From assembly GCA_028691515.1 (NCBI GenBank), contig JAQUZE010000007.1:27645-75103 (forward strand): DNA of 47,459 nucleotides, written 5' to 3'. Below are positions 11,395 to 24,817 of the stretch, one piece after another. Origin of the DNA: Bacilli bacterium (GTDB lineage Bacteria > Bacillota_I > Bacilli_A > ML615J-28 > CAG-698). The notes beneath the pieces were generated by a model. That model made no database searches and was not told where the DNA came from. It was given only the letters and a program-made list of their open reading frames with translations. The position numbers and the translations under genes were made by a program. The stretch's first letter is position 1; every line of letters starts with the position of its first letter.

Positions 11395-12693
11395 TTGTTT
11401 AAGAAAAGTAGCGGTACTCTGATTCGTGAACATTCAGGACATAAAGGGTTATCTGAAAATAGCCCAATAGTTGAATTTCTGAAACCGAATTTTGTTTATT
11501 TTCCTTTAATGGAAAATAATTGTCCTTATGAAAGTTTAGTTAATGTTGGTGATAAAGTTAAGGTTGGACAACTGATTTCTATAAAAAGTGGTCGTTTTCC
11601 ATCATTTACTCATTCATCAGTTAGTGGAGAAGTAATTTCAATTGATAAAAAGATGTGGCATCCAAGTGGTAAAATGGTTCCAACAATTGAAATTAAAAAT
11701 GATCTTCAAGAAACAATGTTTGAAGAAATTAAAGATAATGATGTTTCTAATTTATCGAGTAAAGATATTATAAATATTGTAAAAAACTGTGGTGTTGTTG
11801 GTCTTGGCGGTGCCTGTTTTCCAACATATGTAAAATATAATCCTGACAATAATATTAATACAATTATTATTAATGCAGCAGAATGTGAACCATATATTAC
11901 TGCAGATTATGTGACGATGATTAATAATGTTAATGAATTAATTAGAGGTATTTCTTATATTATGAAAGCAAATAACGCCTCAAGAGGAGTTATTGCTGTT
12001 AAAAAATATCATACTGAACTTGTTGAACATTTACAAAAAAGTTTAGCAAATATTAATAACATTTCTTTATTTTTATTGGATAATGTATATCCTGCTGGTT
12101 GGGAAAAATATATTGTACAAAGAGTTCAAAAAAAGACTTATAAAGGTTTGCCAGCTGAAGTAGGAGCAGTTGTGAATAATGTTCAAACTGCTGTATCTGT
12201 TTGTCAAGCTGTTGAAAAAAATATGCCTTTGATTGAAAAAATAATCACCTTTACAGGTAAGGGTTTAAAAGAACCTAAAAATGTAAGAGTTAAAATTGGA
12301 TCATTAGTTAATGAAATAATTGATTTTATTGGTGGGTATATTGATGATTTAGAAGATGCTTATTTAATTGCTGGTGGACCAATGACTGGTAACGCAATTG
12401 TTTTTGACAATATGATTGCTGCTAAAATGTTAGGTTCTGTAATTGTAATGCCTAAGGAAAAACAAGAAGTAGAACTTCCTTGTATGGGCTGTGGAAAATG
12501 TACAGAAATTTGTCCGGTGTTTTTATCTCCTATTTTAATTAAAAATGCTTATGATGACAAAGATGTAGAAAAAATAATAAAATTAGATGCTAATCGTTGT
12601 ATGGCTTGTGGACTTTGTTCTTATGTTTGTCCATCTAGGATTGAACTTACTGATATAGTTACAAGAGCTAAAACGTTAGCTAATAAGAAATAG
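11395..12693 (+). CDS. rnfC: Rnf electron transport complex subunit C
   Basis: RnfC is the membrane-associated NADH/FMN and iron-sulfur subunit of the Rnf complex, which couples ferredoxin:NAD+ electron transfer to ion pumping. Seen here are the nucleotide-binding GVVGLGGACFPTYVK and INAAECEPYITADY, and near the C-terminus two four-cysteine clusters: CMGCGKCTEICP from C363 and CMACGLCSYVCP from C402. The N-terminal H-x-G-x-K-G-L-S segment is usual. Length (432) fits. The start is TTG at 11395, 8 bases after GGGAGG. It is the first of six genes in the order C-D-G-E-A-B, each within 10 bases of or overlapping the next. Confidence 0.97.
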   Translation: MFKKSSGTLIREHSGHKGLSENSPIVEFLKPNFVYFPLMENNCPYESLVNVGDKVKVGQLISIKSGRFPSFTHSSVSGEVISIDKKMWHPSGKMVPTIEIKNDLQETMFEEIKDNDVSNLSSKDIINIVKNCGVVGLGGACFPTYVKYNPDNNINTIIINAAECEPYITADYVTMINNVNELIRGISYIMKANNASRGVIAVKKYHTELVEHLQKSLANINNISLFLLDNVYPAGWEKYIVQRVQKKTYKGLPAEVGAVVNNVQTAVSVCQAVEKNMPLIEKIITFTGKGLKEPKNVRVKIGSLVNEIIDFIGGYIDDLEDAYLIAGGPMTGNAIVFDNMIAAKMLGSVIVMPKEKQEVELPCMGCGKCTEICPVFLSPILIKNAYDDKDVEKIIKLDANRCMACGLCSYVCPSRIELTDIVTRAKTLANKK

Positions 12694-12702
12694 GTGAAAT
12701 AA

Positions 12703-14991
12703 ATGAAAAATAAAAGATTTGCATTAGCAAAAGCTCCATTTATTAGAAGAGCTGACTCTACTTTAAGCACATCGCAAATGATGAAATATTTTGTGATGGC
12801 TTTAGTACCAATTATTTTATTTGCGTGGGTAAAAAATGGATTGTTACCATTTTTAGAAGTAGAAACTAAAAATTTTAGTAGTGTTTTAACTATGCTTTAT
12901 CCATTGTTTTTAGTATTTATTGGCGGATTTACTAGTTTTATTTCTGAATTTATTTATTTTAAATATATTAAAAAAACTGTAAATCCACTTATAGAAACTG
13001 GTAATTCTTTTGCAATTATTCCTGGATTATTATTAGGAATGATAGTATCTATTAATACTCCTTTATGGATATTAATAATAGGTGTATTATTTGCTACAAT
13101 TATTGGAAAATTATTATTTGGTGGATTTGGTAAAAATGTTTTTAATCCTGCTTTAGTAGGTTACTTATTTATTCAAACTGCATATTTTGGAGTTATTTCT
13201 AAAAATGGAGGATATTTAAATGGAAGTGAAGCAATTGGTTTGGATATTGTTAGTGGAGTTACTCCACTTGCAAATCTAACTGCAAATCCTTTAGGACATT
13301 TTGAGCAATTAGTTGCGCCTTATGGATCGTTAATGGATTTCTTTATTGGAACTATTCCAGGATCGCTTGCAGAAACTAGTGCGTTGTTATGTATACTTGC
13401 AGCTGCTTTCTTAATTTGGAAAAAAGTTATTAATTGGAGAATTCCTGTGATTTATGTTGGAACTGTTTTTGTTTTAACTTATATCATAGGTGCAGCTAAT
13501 GGTCATGCTACTGATTTATGGTATCCAACATTTGGAATCTTAAGTGGCGGGTTAATGTTTGGGGCTGTATTTATGGCAACTGAACCTGTTACATCACCTA
13601 GAACACCAAATGGTAAAATTTTATATGCTCTTTCTTTAGGAGCATTAACTATATTATTCCGTTATAAATCAAACTTCCCTGAAGGAGTGGCAACTTCAAT
13701 TTTAGCAATGAATTTACTTGTAATTATTTTTGATAATATTGCCAGTAGATTAAGAGTTAATCCAAAAATTAAACAAGTTGTATCAATTTATGCTATTTTT
13801 GGTCTTGTTTTAATTGGAATAAGTGCTTACGCTATAACTAGCGTTAAACCTGCTTTATTAAATTATTCTTATGAATCAAGTGAAGTAGATTATCAAACTT
13901 TAAATATTAAACATACAATCAAATATGGTAATCATCAAATGATTGTTGAAACTGATTTAGAAGGTGAAGTCATTGATGTTGATTTACAAGGCCAAACTTA
14001 TCTAAATATAGATGAAATAAAAACTAGCGAAAAGTTAGTTAATAATTATAAAATAATTGAAAATTATATTGAAAAAGCTTATCAAGATGATGATGGTAAT
14101 TACGTATTAATTATTAAGACAAAAGGATTTAAAAATGAATTAATTGAAACTAATGTAATTATTAATACTGAATTTCAAATAACAAGTTTTGTTTCCGATA
14201 TTTCTAATGAATCATATTCTACATATAATAGTGATAATGATCCTGCAAATGGTTGGGTAGAAGCTAATGGACATCCAGATAAAATTATTGGAGAAATAAT
14301 TGTAGCAGGTGAAACTAATTTAGATAAAATTAATCCAGTTAGTGGTGCTACTGTATCATCTAAAGCAATTATAAAAGCAGCACAACTTACATTTGGTTAT
14401 ATTAAGGCATTAAAATTAGATGAAGCATTTATTGGTGAATCACCTGCGGTTAAAGTAGATTATGTGGCAAGTTATTTTGATGTTCCAACAATGAGTTTTA
14501 AATATGAATTTAAAATTGGAGAAGAAGAATTTTTTGTTTTAACTAATAATGCATATGAAATACAATCATTTAGTAATGACGATTTAGATACTGAGATAAT
14601 TAGACCTGAAGTAGAGGCCCTTATAAGCTCTAAAAAAGTTAGAAATTATATTGTAGAAGAAACTATTGAAGGAGATAATTTAATTTTAGAAATTAAAACA
14701 CAAGGTTATGCTACAACATTAACATCTACTGTTACTATTTCTAAAACTAGCAAGCAAATTATATCTCTAGATGTTAATGCTAGCGATGAAACATATGATG
14801 AAGAATATAATCAAGGTTGGAATGCTGCAAATGGACATCCTGATGAATTGATTCCACCTCAAATTGTAGAACATCAAGGCGATTTATCACTTGTTAATCC
14901 TGTGAGTGGAGCAACAGTTACTTCTAATGCAATTAAAAAGGCTGCATTATTAGCAAATGAATATATAGAGGAGTTTAGTGAATTATGGTAA
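12703..14991 (+). CDS. rnfD: Rnf subunit D fused to two C-terminal FMN-binding domains
   Basis: Residues 1-~350 are RnfD, the multi-span membrane subunit that carries covalent FMN; the phosphothreonine-FMN site corresponds to S-G-V-T187-P-L (SGAT in many relatives). KNVFNPALVGY and ATEPVTSPRTPNG are family motifs. The ordinary protein would end near residue 350. Here a further membrane segment (~357-381) leads into ~380 residues with two FMN-binding repeats, each ending in N-P-V-S-G-A-T-V (T550 and T738) and each preceded by GW-x2-A-NGHPD. The added part looks like an RnfG (one helix plus FMN domain) with the FMN domain doubled. At 762 residues it is about twice the usual length. It overlaps rnfG by 7 bases. 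Confidence 0.93.
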   Translation: MKNKRFALAKAPFIRRADSTLSTSQMMKYFVMALVPIILFAWVKNGLLPFLEVETKNFSSVLTMLYPLFLVFIGGFTSFISEFIYFKYIKKTVNPLIETGNSFAIIPGLLLGMIVSINTPLWILIIGVLFATIIGKLLFGGFGKNVFNPALVGYLFIQTAYFGVISKNGGYLNGSEAIGLDIVSGVTPLANLTANPLGHFEQLVAPYGSLMDFFIGTIPGSLAETSALLCILAAAFLIWKKVINWRIPVIYVGTVFVLTYIIGAANGHATDLWYPTFGILSGGLMFGAVFMATEPVTSPRTPNGKILYALSLGALTILFRYKSNFPEGVATSILAMNLLVIIFDNIASRLRVNPKIKQVVSIYAIFGLVLIGISAYAITSVKPALLNYSYESSEVDYQTLNIKHTIKYGNHQMIVETDLEGEVIDVDLQGQTYLNIDEIKTSEKLVNNYKIIENYIEKAYQDDDGNYVLIIKTKGFKNELIETNVIINTEFQITSFVSDISNESYSTYNSDNDPANGWVEANGHPDKIIGEIIVAGETNLDKINPVSGATVSSKAIIKAAQLTFGYIKALKLDEAFIGESPAVKVDYVASYFDVPTMSFKYEFKIGEEEFFVLTNNAYEIQSFSNDDLDTEIIRPEVEALISSKKVRNYIVEETIEGDNLILEIKTQGYATTLTSTVTISKTSKQIISLDVNASDETYDEEYNQGWNAANGHPDELIPPQIVEHQGDLSLVNPVSGATVTSNAIKKAALLANEYIEEFSELW

Positions 14992-15566
14992 AAATGTCAA
15001 ATACACTTAAATATACAATTTTTCTAATTGTATTAGGTTTGATTAGTGGCGGATTACTAGCTTTTATTAATTCAATTACTGATCCAATTATTCAGGAAAG
15101 AAAAGAAAAGGAAATACAAGATAAATTAATTGATGCTTTTCCTGGTTTTTCATCAACAAAAGAAGTTACTTCTGAATTTGATGATTTAGGAAATAATATT
15201 GGAGCTATATATTTAGTTGGTGATGAAGATGGTAAATTATTAACTGTTGTTTATGAAGTATATGCAAATGGTTATGGTGGAAAGGTTGTAACGTTAATAG
15301 GATTTAATCCTGAGGGTAAAATAGTTAATGCTGTTGTTGCTGATGCAAGTACCGAAACAAAAGGATTTGGTTCTGAACTTATCGGCCATGATTTTAAAAT
15401 TAATGATTTAGAAGTTATAGATTTTGATTTTTTTAATAGTGCGCAAATTATATCTGGTGCCACAGTTTCATCAACTGCTGCTGGAACGGGTATTAACGCA
15501 GGTGTATATCATTTTAATCAAAATAAAGATGTACTAATTGAAATGGTGGTGAAAGCAAATGACTAA
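14985..15566 (+). CDS. rnfG: Rnf subunit G, FMN-binding
   Basis: RnfG has one N-terminal membrane helix (residues ~8-30) and an extracytoplasmic FMN domain with flavin bound covalently to Thr by an ApbE-type transferase. The site is S-G-A-T160-V-S-S, followed by TGINAGVYHF. GYGGKVVTLIGFNPEGKI and ETKGFGSEL are usual for the family. The 193 residues are normal. It starts inside the end of rnfD and overlaps rnfE by 8 bases. An alternative ATG lies at 14994. With the two domains on RnfD, the complex would offer up to three outward FMN domains. Confidence 0.96.
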   Translation: MVKMSNTLKYTIFLIVLGLISGGLLAFINSITDPIIQERKEKEIQDKLIDAFPGFSSTKEVTSEFDDLGNNIGAIYLVGDEDGKLLTVVYEVYANGYGGKVVTLIGFNPEGKIVNAVVADASTETKGFGSELIGHDFKINDLEVIDFDFFNSAQIISGATVSSTAAGTGINAGVYHFNQNKDVLIEMVVKAND

Positions 15567-16215
15567 ATCTCAAAATTTTTTAAAAGGAATTTGGAAAGAA
15601 AACCCTATTTTGGTTTCTGCCCTTGGGATGTGTCCAACACTAGCAATTACAACAAGTTTAGAAAATGCTTTGGGAATGGGAGCTGCAGTATTATTTGTAT
15701 TAGTACTTTCAAACTTAATCATTTCTTTAATAAGAAAAATTGTTCCTAGTCAAATTAGAATTCCTGTATATATTGTCGTTATTGCATCTTTAGTTACTAT
15801 TGTTGATATGATTATGGCTGCTTATCTTCCTGGAATTCATGCTTCACTTGGTATCTTTATTCCTTTGATTGTAGTTAATTGTATTATCTTAGGGAGAGCA
15901 GAGGCTTTTGCTTCAGAAAATAAACCTATTGATTCTGTTTTAGATGCTGTAGGTATGGCAATTGGTTATACTTTAGTAATAGCAGTTATTTCAATTATTC
16001 GTGAAGTTTTAGGGACAGGAACAATTACTGTCTGGAAAGAAATAGCTTTAACAATTAATCCAGATGGAAAATTTGATTTTTTCTCTAGTTTCTTTGTATC
16101 GCCAGCTGGTTCATTTATTGTAATTGGATTGCTTTTTGGTATATTTGCTATTATTAATAAAAAACGTGAAGAAAAGAAAAAATTAGCTTTAAAAGCAGAA
16201 AAGGTGAGTGAATAA
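15559..16215 (+). CDS. rnfE: Rnf subunit E
   Basis: RnfE is a six-helix membrane subunit, homologous to RnfA and inverted relative to it; the pair holds an iron-sulfur cluster in the membrane. The cluster-type cysteines are present in LGMC25PTL and VNC108IILG. The protein starts with the usual NPILVSALGMCP and ends in a Lys/Glu-rich tail. At 218 residues it is of normal size. GGTGGTGA precedes the ATG inside rnfG, and the stop overlaps the rnfA start by one base. Confidence 0.97.
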   Translation: MTKSQNFLKGIWKENPILVSALGMCPTLAITTSLENALGMGAAVLFVLVLSNLIISLIRKIVPSQIRIPVYIVVIASLVTIVDMIMAAYLPGIHASLGIFIPLIVVNCIILGRAEAFASENKPIDSVLDAVGMAIGYTLVIAVISIIREVLGTGTITVWKEIALTINPDGKFDFFSSFFVSPAGSFIVIGLLFGIFAIINKKREEKKKLALKAEKVSE

Positions 16216-16781
16216 TGGGACTTATTTCTATAGCATTTAGTGCAATTTTAGTTCAAAACGTTATTTTATCAAGATTTTTGGGAATTTGTCCTTTTCTAGG
16301 TGTTTCTAATAAATCAAAATCATCTATTGGTATGGGACTTGCAGTTGTTTTTGTAATAACACTTTCTTCTGTAGTTTCATGGTTAATATATTATTATTTG
16401 CTTGATGCATTTTCAATGACTTATATGAGAACTATAGTTTTCATATTGGTAATTGCGTCTTTAGTACAAATAATTGAAATGTTTTTAAAAAAATTTATAC
16501 CATCTCTTTATAAAGCATTAGGTATATATTTACCTTTAATCACTACAAATTGTGCAGTTTTAGGAGTTGCGACTTTAAGTATAGATAATAGTTATAATTT
16601 ACTTGAAACTTTAACTTTTGCTTTTGCATCGTCTGTTGGGTTCTTACTTGTAATTTATATTTTTTCAACATTAAGAGAAAAAATGAATAGAACTGAGAAT
16701 AGCTTTTCTGGAATTCCAATTGCTTTAATTACTGCTGGAATCATGGCAATGATATTTGCAAGATTTGCGGGGGTAATTTAA
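16215..16781 (+). CDS. rnfA: Rnf subunit A
   Basis: RnfA is the partner of RnfE in the membrane core. Six hydrophobic segments and the motifs VQNVILSRFLGIC25PFLGVS and TTNC113AVLGVA are present; both cysteines fit the intramembrane iron-sulfur cluster. At 188 residues it is typical. AAGGTGAG lies upstream in the end of rnfE. The TAA is followed directly by the rnfB ATG. Confidence 0.97.
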   Translation: MGLISIAFSAILVQNVILSRFLGICPFLGVSNKSKSSIGMGLAVVFVITLSSVVSWLIYYYLLDAFSMTYMRTIVFILVIASLVQIIEMFLKKFIPSLYKALGIYLPLITTNCAVLGVATLSIDNSYNLLETLTFAFASSVGFLLVIYIFSTLREKMNRTENSFSGIPIALITAGIMAMIFARFAGVI

Positions 16782-17096
16782 ATGATTATTTTGAGTGCTT
16801 TTACTATCTATGTTTTGCCAGCTTTAGTTTTAGCTGGTGTGGGGGCATTATTTGGGTTATTTATTGGTATTGCTGCAAAATATTTTTACGTTAAAGAAGA
16901 TAATAGAATTCAAGAAGTTCAAGATATGTTGCCAGGATATAATTGTGGAGCTTGTGGTTATCCAGGTTGTTCTGGTCTTGCTAAGGCGATTGTTGAAGAT
17001 GGTGTAAATCCTAGATTGTGTAAACCAGGCAAACAAGAAATGGTTGAAGAAATTAAAAAATATATGTTAGAACATAATGGAAATGAAAACGATTAA
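16782..17096 (+). CDS. rnfB: Rnf subunit B, short form without ferredoxin domains
   Basis: RnfB normally takes electrons from ferredoxin. This protein has the N-terminal helix (~residues 5-30) and the 4Fe-4S domain N-C55-G-A-C58-G-Y-P-G-C63 with C80 in NPRLCKPG, but ends at residue 104. Usual forms run to ~190 residues or much more and carry at least one C-terminal 2[4Fe-4S] ferredoxin module. The 90 bases after the stop encode no Cys-rich sequence in any frame, so this is not a recent frameshift. The end (KKYMLEHNGNEND) looks like a settled C-terminus. Electrons may enter through RnfC or a separate ferredoxin, such as the one at 24524-24691. Confidence 0.92.
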   Translation: MIILSAFTIYVLPALVLAGVGALFGLFIGIAAKYFYVKEDNRIQEVQDMLPGYNCGACGYPGCSGLAKAIVEDGVNPRLCKPGKQEMVEEIKKYMLEHNGNEND

Positions 17097-17151: not shown

Positions 17152-17186
17152 CTTTATGGTAAAACATTTAAAGGAGGATTTTATAA

Positions 17187-18455
17187 ATGTTGAAAAATTT
17201 CGGAAAATTAATTACAGTACTTGTAATAGCATTTTCTCTATTTGTATTAGTTGGTTGTACTAAAGAAGAAACAATTTCTTTTGCTGATGAAAATTTAACT
17301 ATGGTTGTTGGAGATGAAGAAACTCTTGCTCCAGTATTAAGCGATGAAGCTTTAGAAGTAGTATATTCTGCTGTACCAGCTGACGCTGTTACATTTGATG
17401 GTAGTAAAATTACTGCTGTAAAAGCTGGAACTGTTACAGTTACAGCAACTATTAAAGATACAAAAATATCTGCAACACTTACAGTAACAATTACTGAACC
17501 TGTTGTAAAAACTTATGCTGCTGATGGAGTATATACTGCATTTGAAGCAGGCGACAATCATGGAGCGCCAATGGTAACTACAGTTTCTGTTACTATTGCT
17601 GATGATGAAATCGTAAGTTTCTTTATTGATTGTGTTCAATCTACAGCTGTAAAAACTGAGGAAGTTGTTACTGATTACAAATTTAATGAAAAATCTAAAA
17701 AAGAGTTAGGATATCTTTATGGAATGCATAATACACCTAACGCAGAATTTGAATATGAAAGACAAGATCTTACAACAACTGAAGGACTTGCTGCATATGA
17801 AGCATATTTAGAAGAATCAGGAAAATTAGAATGGTTTGAACAAGCTGCTTTAATTGAAGCTCATTTTGTTGCTAATGGAACTACATTAGAACTTGATGAA
17901 ACAACTGAAGCAATTACTAATGTTGCAGGCGTTACTGTTAAAGATGGAAGTTATTCAAAACTTGCAGCTGAAGCTGTTCAAAATGCAATAGATGGAAAAG
18001 TAATTTCAGTTATGGCATCTGGTAATCATGACATAATTTGGGCTGAAGGAACTGTAAATGCTGAAGGAAGTTTAACAGAATTAGAGTTAAACACACTACA
18101 AGGCAGAATGGTTGAAGGCGCTTATGCTTGGGATGCAAAGAACAAGCAAGAAAAAGGTTATTTATATGGAATGCATAACTCACCAAATGCTGAGTTAGAA
18201 TATGAAAAACAAGATCTTACAACAACTGAAGGACTTGCTGCTTATAAGGCATATCTTGAAGAAGCTGGTAAATTAGAATGGTTTGAACAAGTTGAACTAA
18301 TTACTGATTATGTTTTAGAAAATGGAGTTGCTGGCTTAGTTCTTGAAGGTACTAAATTAGATGGATCTGTTGAAGCATTATCTGGAGTTTCAATAACTGC
18401 AATAGGTTATGTAACTGTTCTTAATGCATTATATACAGCGTTTCCTAATGCATAA
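17187..18455 (+). CDS. Surface lipoprotein with Big2-like and two degenerate FMN-binding-like units
   Basis: A signal peptide with lipobox LVGC (C24) anchors this 422-residue protein on the outer membrane face. Residues ~30-107 resemble a bacterial Ig-like (Big2) domain. Two units follow, each with G-Y-L-Y-G-M-H-N, a 45-residue near-duplicate ending in EWFEQ, and a closing motif like the FMN attachment site: V-A-G-V-T250-V and L-S-G-V-S402-I in place of SGAT-[ST]. From memory, the YGM...EWFEQ pattern recalls the PplA/cAD1-precursor group of extracellular flavolipoproteins; that link needs a search. AAAGGAGG precedes the ATG. It directly follows rnfB, which supports a role in electron transfer at the surface. 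Flavin loading is uncertain because both motifs are altered. Confidence 0.8.
   Translation: MLKNFGKLITVLVIAFSLFVLVGCTKEETISFADENLTMVVGDEETLAPVLSDEALEVVYSAVPADAVTFDGSKITAVKAGTVTVTATIKDTKISATLTVTITEPVVKTYAADGVYTAFEAGDNHGAPMVTTVSVTIADDEIVSFFIDCVQSTAVKTEEVVTDYKFNEKSKKELGYLYGMHNTPNAEFEYERQDLTTTEGLAAYEAYLEESGKLEWFEQAALIEAHFVANGTTLELDETTEAITNVAGVTVKDGSYSKLAAEAVQNAIDGKVISVMASGNHDIIWAEGTVNAEGSLTELELNTLQGRMVEGAYAWDAKNKQEKGYLYGMHNSPNAELEYEKQDLTTTEGLAAYKAYLEEAGKLEWFEQVELITDYVLENGVAGLVLEGTKLDGSVEALSGVSITAIGYVTVLNALYTAFPNA
17709..18290 (+). repeat. In-frame duplication in the lipoprotein gene (17709-17843 and 18156-18290)
   Basis: Two 135-base copies lie 447 bases apart and in frame. Their translations agree at 40 of 45 residues, and a block around the codons for QDLTTTEGLAAY is nearly identical in DNA. 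The rest of the two units is much less alike, so this block is either recently converted or tightly constrained. Confidence 0.9.
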
Positions 18456-18468
18456 ATAATTTTTATAG

Positions 18469-18494
18469 AAAAGGCAGGATTTTCCTGTCTTTTT
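18469..18494 (+). terminator. Intrinsic terminator after the lipoprotein gene
   Basis: AAAAGGCAGGA / TCCTGTCTTTT stem with one G-U pair and a short T loop, then a T tail. An outer TTATAGAAA / TTTCTATAA pairing (to ~18507) could extend it. Confidence 0.88.
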
Positions 18495-24523: not shown

Positions 24524-24691
24524 TTATCTTTCTAAGATAGCATCAGTAGGACAAACTTCTTGGCATGCTCCACAATCAATACATGCATCCTCATCGATAA
24601 CATAAATTTCACCTTCTGAAATACAATCAACTGGGCACTCAGCTTGGCAACTTCCACACGCAATACAAAGATCTGTAATATATCTTGGCAT
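24524..24691 (-). CDS. 2[4Fe-4S] ferredoxin
   Basis: A 55-residue clostridial-type ferredoxin with two C-x2-C-x2-C-x3-CP motifs: CIACGSCQAECP and CIDCGACQEVCP. It is a soluble low-potential electron carrier. The start is ATG at 24691 with AAAGGAGG 7 bases upstream; a longer in-frame start would add 20 unrelated residues through the promoter. Its own promoter and terminator show it is monocistronic. It is a natural partner for the Rnf complex at 11395-17096, whose RnfB lacks ferredoxin domains. Confidence 0.96.
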   Translation of the reverse strand: MPRYITDLCIACGSCQAECPVDCISEGEIYVIDEDACIDCGACQEVCPTDAILER

Positions 24692-24719
24692 GATAATCCT
24701 CCTTTTATCTACTGAATAT

Positions 24720-24747
24720 ATTATAACAATAAATTTAGAAAATACAA
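24720..24747 (-). promoter_or_regulatory. Promoter of the ferredoxin gene
   Basis: On the minus strand, TTGTAT, a 16-base spacer, then TGTTATAAT (extended -10). A TGAATATATT sequence, discussed under findings, overlaps the start region at about 24713-24722. Confidence 0.7.
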
Positions 24748-24817
24748 CCATTAATTAAAAATAAAACCTTTTCATTTTTTTTGATTTCATTTATTTTTTT
24801 ATAAATAATAATTTAAC

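Follow-up and report, generated by a model that had tools for sequence, protein, structure and literature searches.

A PplA-type doublet lipoprotein encoded at the end of an rnf operon, and its possible role in outward electron transfer from Rnf

Flavin-based extracellular electron transfer in Gram-positive bacteria is known as a process with Ndh2 and quinones as its source of electrons. The stretch of DNA analysed here (47,459 nucleotides of a Bacilli bacterium genome, referred to as the window) contains an rnf operon and, immediately after rnfB, a gene for a lipoprotein. The question is whether its product is a surface flavoprotein of the same class and, if so, from where it would receive electrons. 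A sequence-only reading had proposed that two units of this protein end in AGVTV and SGVSI at the place of the SGAT flavin-attachment site, that their YGM...EWFEQ core recalls PplA, and that electrons pass from NADH or ferredoxin through Rnf to surface flavins and on to an acceptor outside a possibly wall-less cell. The explanation that we favour, which is probable rather than secure when taken as a whole with its electron route, is that the gene product is anchored by a lipid to the outside of the membrane and is built from an Ig-like spacer followed by two fused PplA-type (FMN-bind2) units.

The rnf operon and its terminal gene

The operon and its last gene have the following features.

11395..12693, + strand: rnfC, first operon gene (TIGR01945, 6.8e-104, over cut-off)
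12703..14991, + strand: rnfD with two C-terminal FMN_bind domains fused, 762 aa (PF03116, 2.4e-74; PF04205, 4.4e-11)
14158..14385, + strand: first extra FMN_bind domain of RnfD, with SGAT (PF04205 match G000:C1:41802-42029, over cut-off)
14704..14946, + strand: second extra FMN_bind domain of RnfD, with SGAT (PF04205 match G000:C1:42348-42590, over cut-off)
14985..15566, + strand: rnfG, extracytosolic FMN subunit (PF04205, 3.4e-8; SGAT at residue 157)
15559..16215, + strand: rnfE (TIGR01948, 1.3e-70, over cut-off)
16215..16781, + strand: rnfA (TIGR01943, 1.9e-71, over cut-off)
16782..17096, + strand: rnfB, short, 104 aa (PF04060 alone found; TIGR01944 covers residues 13-95 only)
17170..17177, + strand: strong ribosome-binding site of the lipoprotein gene, AAAGGAGG, from the sequence
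17187..18455, + strand: PplA-like doublet lipoprotein, 422 aa (translation, repeat, profile and fold)
17187..17258, + strand: lipoprotein signal peptide with lipobox LVGC (C24), from the translation; residues 1-27 are the sole hydrophobic segment
17268..17498, + strand: Ig-like (Big_2-type) spacer, similar to other proteins of the genome, with a Big_2 match in one homologue
17508..17993, + strand: FMN-bind2-type unit 1, from the predicted model (3o6u, Z 10.2; 2kzx, Z 9.8; model residues 5-171)
17916..17936, + strand: unit 1 attachment motif TNVAGVT, predicted FMN site T250, in the conserved T/S column
17994..18452, + strand: FMN-bind2-type unit 2, from the BLASTP repeat and the model (weak match to CbFMN4 domain 1, 8p2b, Z 5.0)
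18372..18392, + strand: unit 2 attachment motif EALSGVS, predicted FMN site S402, in the conserved T/S column
18468..18494, + strand: intrinsic-terminator-like hairpin at the operon end (12-pair stem, T-rich tail)

In the window the lipoprotein gene is flanked by rnfB and glyS, and it starts about 90 bases 3' of the rnfB stop codon. Because it has its own ribosome-binding site, no terminator-like site was found in the gap after rnfB, and a terminator-like hairpin lies 13 bases beyond its stop codon, it is most simply read from the sequence as the final gene of an rnfCDGEAB operon. The earlier placement of a lipobox protein immediately after rnfB agrees with this reading frame, lipobox and gap. 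At four other loci (L003, L004, L006 and L008) a conserved multi-pass membrane protein of about 170-200 aa is encoded between the lipoprotein and glyS; it is absent in the window.

The doubled FMN domains that had been noticed on RnfD are present, their SGAT motifs lying at residues 547 and 735. Loci with an rnf-linked lipoprotein usually also hold such a second FMN_bind doublet, which is fused to RnfD in the window and L056 (probably also in L060 and L087), fused to RnfG in L058, or encoded as a separate membrane-anchored gene between rnfD and rnfG (for example in L086, L089, L112 and L115). L110 too is among the loci with an FMN_bind doublet in the rnf operon. Two genomes of the same family without the lipoprotein, G005 and G013, are also without the extra doublet; in a simple pattern scan their RnfG-position proteins (L062, L063) gave no clear [ST]GA[ST].

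The RnfB of the window consists of a membrane anchor and one PF04060 cluster domain, and no Fer4 domains were found in it. Throughout the group (window, L056-L067, L081-L117) RnfB is about 100-130 aa long and has none of the Fer4 domains of an ordinary RnfB, such as the one of 284 aa at the Clostridia locus L118. Elsewhere in the window, positions 24524-24751 of the - strand code for a ferredoxin-like protein of 75 aa that has two clusters of the CxxCxxC type.

Architecture, fold and relatives of the lipoprotein

The Ig-like region, of about 75 residues, resembles stretches of a 788-aa and an 882-aa protein of the same genome, and Big_2 scored 2.6e-17 in one member of the lipoprotein family. 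The two units, each of about 155 aa, are homologous, with 43% identity over 143 residues (BLASTP of unit 1 against unit 2, E 2e-36). Both contain a YLYGMHN...EWFEQ core; unit 1 ends in NVAGVTV (T250) and unit 2 in LSGVSI (S402), as had been described.

Single-sequence searches of Pfam, NCBIfam and the PDB gave no FMN_bind match to the lipoprotein; since FMN_bind is missed in this way, an empty Pfam search does not count against an FMN_bind assignment within this family. A profile built from 12 homologues matches the FMN_bind structures 2kzx (8.3e-9) and 3o6u (7.4e-4), with EWHEQ...DAISGATIK of 2kzx aligned to EWFEQ...NVAGVTIK of the lipoprotein family. The AlphaFold model of residues 105-422, made with 12 homologues, has a pLDDT of 94.3 and a pTM of 0.90. 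Foldseek returned 2kzx (3.3e-4) as the sole match below 0.001, and the two highest VIA-align scores are those given above for 3o6u and 2kzx, the remaining rows having Z ≤5.5. The lower Foldseek rows, and the VIA matches to IscU or MHC (Z ≤5.5), were taken to represent common sheet-helix arrangements and were rejected. AGVT and SGVS of the two units occupy the SGAT position of FMN_bind. Profile and predicted fold thus both indicate that the units are FMN_bind domains, of the FMN-bind2 subtype, which bears out the FMN-binding character that had been suspected from the motifs.

In the whole-genome FMN_bind scan only RnfG and the two RnfD domains were over the cut-off; a sub-threshold match in an unrelated methyltransferase-like ORF (L025) was set aside. 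Comparison of the lipoprotein with four RnfD-linked FMN_bind doublets by hhalign gave a probability of 1%, from shallow alignments of what is the same fold superfamily. A simple recent duplication of those doublets is therefore unsupported as the origin of the lipoprotein.

For PplA, hhalign of the lipoprotein profile against PplA-like proteins gave a probability of 96.8% (E 2.4e-10), in line with the PplA-type likeness proposed for the core. The locus of these relatives contains polyprenyl synthase, ndh2, pplA and apbE. With PplA, known from the flavin-based systems of Listeria and Enterococcus (Cad), the protein shares two FMN_bind-type units on a lipoprotein, the W(F/Y)EQ...GVT motif and an ApbE in the genome. 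It differs in its N-terminal Ig-like spacer and in its genomic place, which is an rnf operon and not a cluster of ndh2/dmk genes. Moreover, apbE is found on a different contig, where its neighbours are an ABC transporter and a SufC-like gene, while the PplA system is encoded with apbE/fmnB; and the quinone pool is the donor of that system, whereas UbiA was not detected here. Because neither the gene neighbourhood nor the quinone-making enzyme typical of the Ndh2-quinone PplA system was found, the lipoprotein is classed with the FMN-bind2-type doublets and kept apart from that system.

The accessible part of Huang et al. 2024 (PMC10979944) describes FMN-bind2 domains of about 160 aa in even copy number, predicted to form a pseudo-symmetric pair, with an illustrated example from Erysipelotrichaceae. 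The lipoprotein has the same layout, its two units of about 155 aa being modelled with confidence as a single body; its motif is GV[TS], while theirs is GA[ST]. That part of the paper describes no Rnf-operon lipoprotein of this type; it uses 3o6u as the reference FMN_bind1 protein. The proteins of the best structural and profile matches, CPE2226 (3o6u) and A3DHT5 (2kzx), are FMN_bind1 proteins that differ in being single compact domains of about 120-130 aa. A bifurcated outward path has been proposed for multi-flavinylated RnfG (Meheust et al. 2021, PMC8238504), where Rnf likewise supplies additional extracytosolic flavins and alternative acceptors; there the extra flavins are on RnfG, here they would be on RnfD and a separate lipoprotein. 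Rnf in Tenericutes has also been reported (PMC7301438, PMC11122141). FMN-bind2 doublets, PplA, Tenericutes Rnf and outward branching through RnfG are thus all published, and the Rnf-coupled variant of the lipoprotein appears to be new: a literature search, with most subscription journals outside its coverage, found no paper on a PplA-type lipoprotein in an rnf operon.

Among 295 genomes of the phylum the lipoprotein family is present in 35, of which 34 encode ApbE and 31 RnfC, compared with 106 for ApbE and 106 for RnfC over all 295 genomes, in counts that ignore phylogeny. ApbE and RnfC are almost always found together in this sample, uncorrected for relatedness; one genome with the lipoprotein (G150) has neither at a detectable level. 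The 38 loci found in GTDB genomes are nearly all from Acholeplasmatales, Izemoplasmatales and other Tenericutes or Bacilli MAGs. Where a named locus has readable context (33 loci), the gene is directly downstream of rnfA/rnfB in 21 and adjoins lepA, not rnf, in 12; the remaining loci are cut by a contig end, have neither neighbour or, for L118, were not scored as a lipoprotein. The family therefore both co-occurs with rnf and adjoins it, as the sequence-only reading would lead one to expect. The rnf-linked homologues span 27-60% identity, and conservation of the context over this range points to a functional link. Two clean clades of rnf-linked and lepA-linked homologues were not seen.

The lepA-adjacent doublet lipoprotein is conserved in many Acholeplasmataceae (L090, L091, L093, L099, L103-L108, L113, L114). 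One of these, L114, is from Peloplasma aerotolerans, a wall-less relative that has been cultured; it has an rnf operon, and in its strain M4Ah no copy other than the lepA-linked one was seen. AQDS or ferrihydrite gave no stimulation of this organism (PMC11122141), a result that is limited here in that its copy is not the rnf-linked one and that stimulated growth and reduction are different things. In Clostridia bacterium RGIG426 (L118) a full-length rnf operon is followed by a distant family match and then apbE. Single FMN-bind2 lipoproteins with SGCT, SGVT or AGVT motifs occur at L045, L046, L047, L054 and L055, in small clusters that, by eye, look like apbE/eetA/eetB neighbours.

Attachment motifs and predicted flavinylation

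The ApbE consensus motif is Dxx[ST]GA[ST] (PMC12052999), and its strict form is absent from both units of the lipoprotein. Unit 1 (TNVAGVT) departs from it by T at -6, A at -3 and V at -1, and unit 2 (EALSGVS) by E at -6, a Ser acceptor and V at -1. In one model substrate the A-to-V change cut flavinylation to about half, and losing the D had little effect (PMC12052999). In Listeria PplA the flavin sites are Thr143 and Thr265, and Ser can substitute (PMC8906456).

An alignment of 68 homologous units from related genomes has T at the acceptor position in 56/68 and S in 10/68, so that 66/68 have one or the other; no other well-filled column exceeds 40% T/S. The residue before the acceptor is V in 49/68, the preceding G is kept in 55/68, and position -6 is D in 33/68 and E in 10/68. 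The hydroxyl residue is thus held while the flanking consensus drifts, and together the repeat and the conserved motifs are far beyond chance. Both exceptions are units of one tandem paralogue in genome G007, a second lipoprotein copy (L081 3512-4576, equal to L002 337-1401) that has kept neither attachment position (GVN, GVI) and would be a natural non-flavinylated control.

The relaxed form [ATS]GV[TS] is the norm across the family, PplA-like proteins included, and PplA-like proteins encoded between ndh2 and apbE carry similar motifs (SGVT, NGVT, EGLT). The membrane flavin site of RnfD in this operon reads DIVSGVT (T187), and in relatives SGAT, AGAT, AGVT, SSAT or SVT. On the basis of these motifs, flavinylation of the predicted sites T250 and S402 is likely.

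Electron donor and alternative explanations

The genome (G000, 94.9% complete) encodes an ApbE lipoprotein with a lipobox, the partner that predicted flavinylation calls for, and an EetB-like (PF07456) protein. EetB helps to supply FAD outside the cell in Listeria (PMC9973259), and by analogy the protein here could do the same. At the settings of these searches, UbiA (PF01040), found in 14/14 control genomes, gave no match in the genome, and neither a penicillin-binding transpeptidase nor an [FeFe] hydrogenase was detected in it. The lack of a transpeptidase is consistent with the wall-less host proposed earlier, and the cell appears to have no wall. No extracytosolic terminal reductase was identified in the genome; PF00890 gave just short Rossmann-segment matches, and a fumarate-reductase-type acceptor was rejected.

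Since UbiA was not found, a quinol donor of the Listeria type seems unavailable, and with no transpeptidase or [FeFe] hydrogenase detected either, the gene content makes Rnf the likeliest electron donor. In the best explanation, which we regard as reasonably probable, the ApbE lipoprotein would attach FMN to T250 and S402, and these two flavins would take electrons from the extracytosolic Rnf flavins (RnfG and the two extra domains of RnfD). The lipoprotein would then, in the least certain step, hand them to an acceptor, soluble or solid, in the surroundings of the wall-less cell, and Rnf would gain an outward side branch disposing of electrons from NADH or ferredoxin. All three parts of this route, flavinylation, transfer from Rnf and delivery to the outside, are inferences. 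Several observations speak against it: both motifs depart from the ApbE consensus, 12 loci have the gene beside lepA, G150 has the lipoprotein with neither ApbE nor RnfC detected, Peloplasma aerotolerans was not stimulated, and the search for an extracytosolic terminal reductase gave none.

It is also conceivable, though unlikely, that the protein is a flavinylated accessory subunit inside the Rnf complex, a relay or store of flavin electrons like multi-flavinylated RnfG, that never meets an outside acceptor. The tight and conserved order of rnfB and the lipoprotein gene would fit such a subunit, as would the missing terminal reductase and the placing of the other doublet on RnfD, on RnfG or on a free anchored protein, which shows that flavin modules are being added to Rnf. 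A flexible lipid anchor with an Ig-like spacer, however, fits a mobile surface protein better than a core subunit, some homologues are lepA-linked and away from the rnf operon, and the PplA-like relatives are in a quinol-fed locus with no rnf genes adjoining.

Less likely again is a lipoprotein with the FMN_bind fold and no covalent flavin, with a structural, flavin-trafficking or chaperone role beside Rnf. The motifs do lack the consensus D and A, and the G007 paralogue, with N and I at its acceptor positions, indicates that loss does occur in the family. Such a loss is hard to reconcile with a T/S acceptor in 66/68 units amid drifting neighbours, with the same GVT/GLT form in PplA-like homologues beside apbE, with ApbE in 34/35 genomes that have the family, or with the SGVT of RnfD in the same operon. 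An unrelated lipoprotein, for example for substrate binding or adhesion, with a chance likeness of AGVTV and SGVSI to SGAT, would account for the empty single-sequence searches, but is strongly disfavoured, to the point of being highly improbable, by the profile, fold and profile-profile evidence.

A further-reaching form of the outward route from Rnf is doubtful as a whole. It holds that in Mollicutes-related lineages Rnf has been rebuilt as an outward conduit, with as many as six covalent flavins on the outer face (RnfD, RnfG, the extra doublet and the lipoprotein pair), an RnfB that has lost its ferredoxin-type domains, and a PplA-type lipoprotein that passes electrons directly to acceptors in the medium. 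If true, flavin-based extracellular electron transfer would operate without quinones or a cell wall, by way of a GV[TS] motif.

Here a surface flavoprotein of the class known from Ndh2-fed systems is encoded by the last gene of an rnf operon, and neither a quinone prenyltransferase nor a penicillin-binding transpeptidase was detected in the genome. If the favoured explanation is true, ApbE must act on GV[TS] as well, so that motif-based counts of flavinylated proteins would have to be widened; and Rnf would have a second exit, which bears on the role of Rnf in wall-less fermenters.
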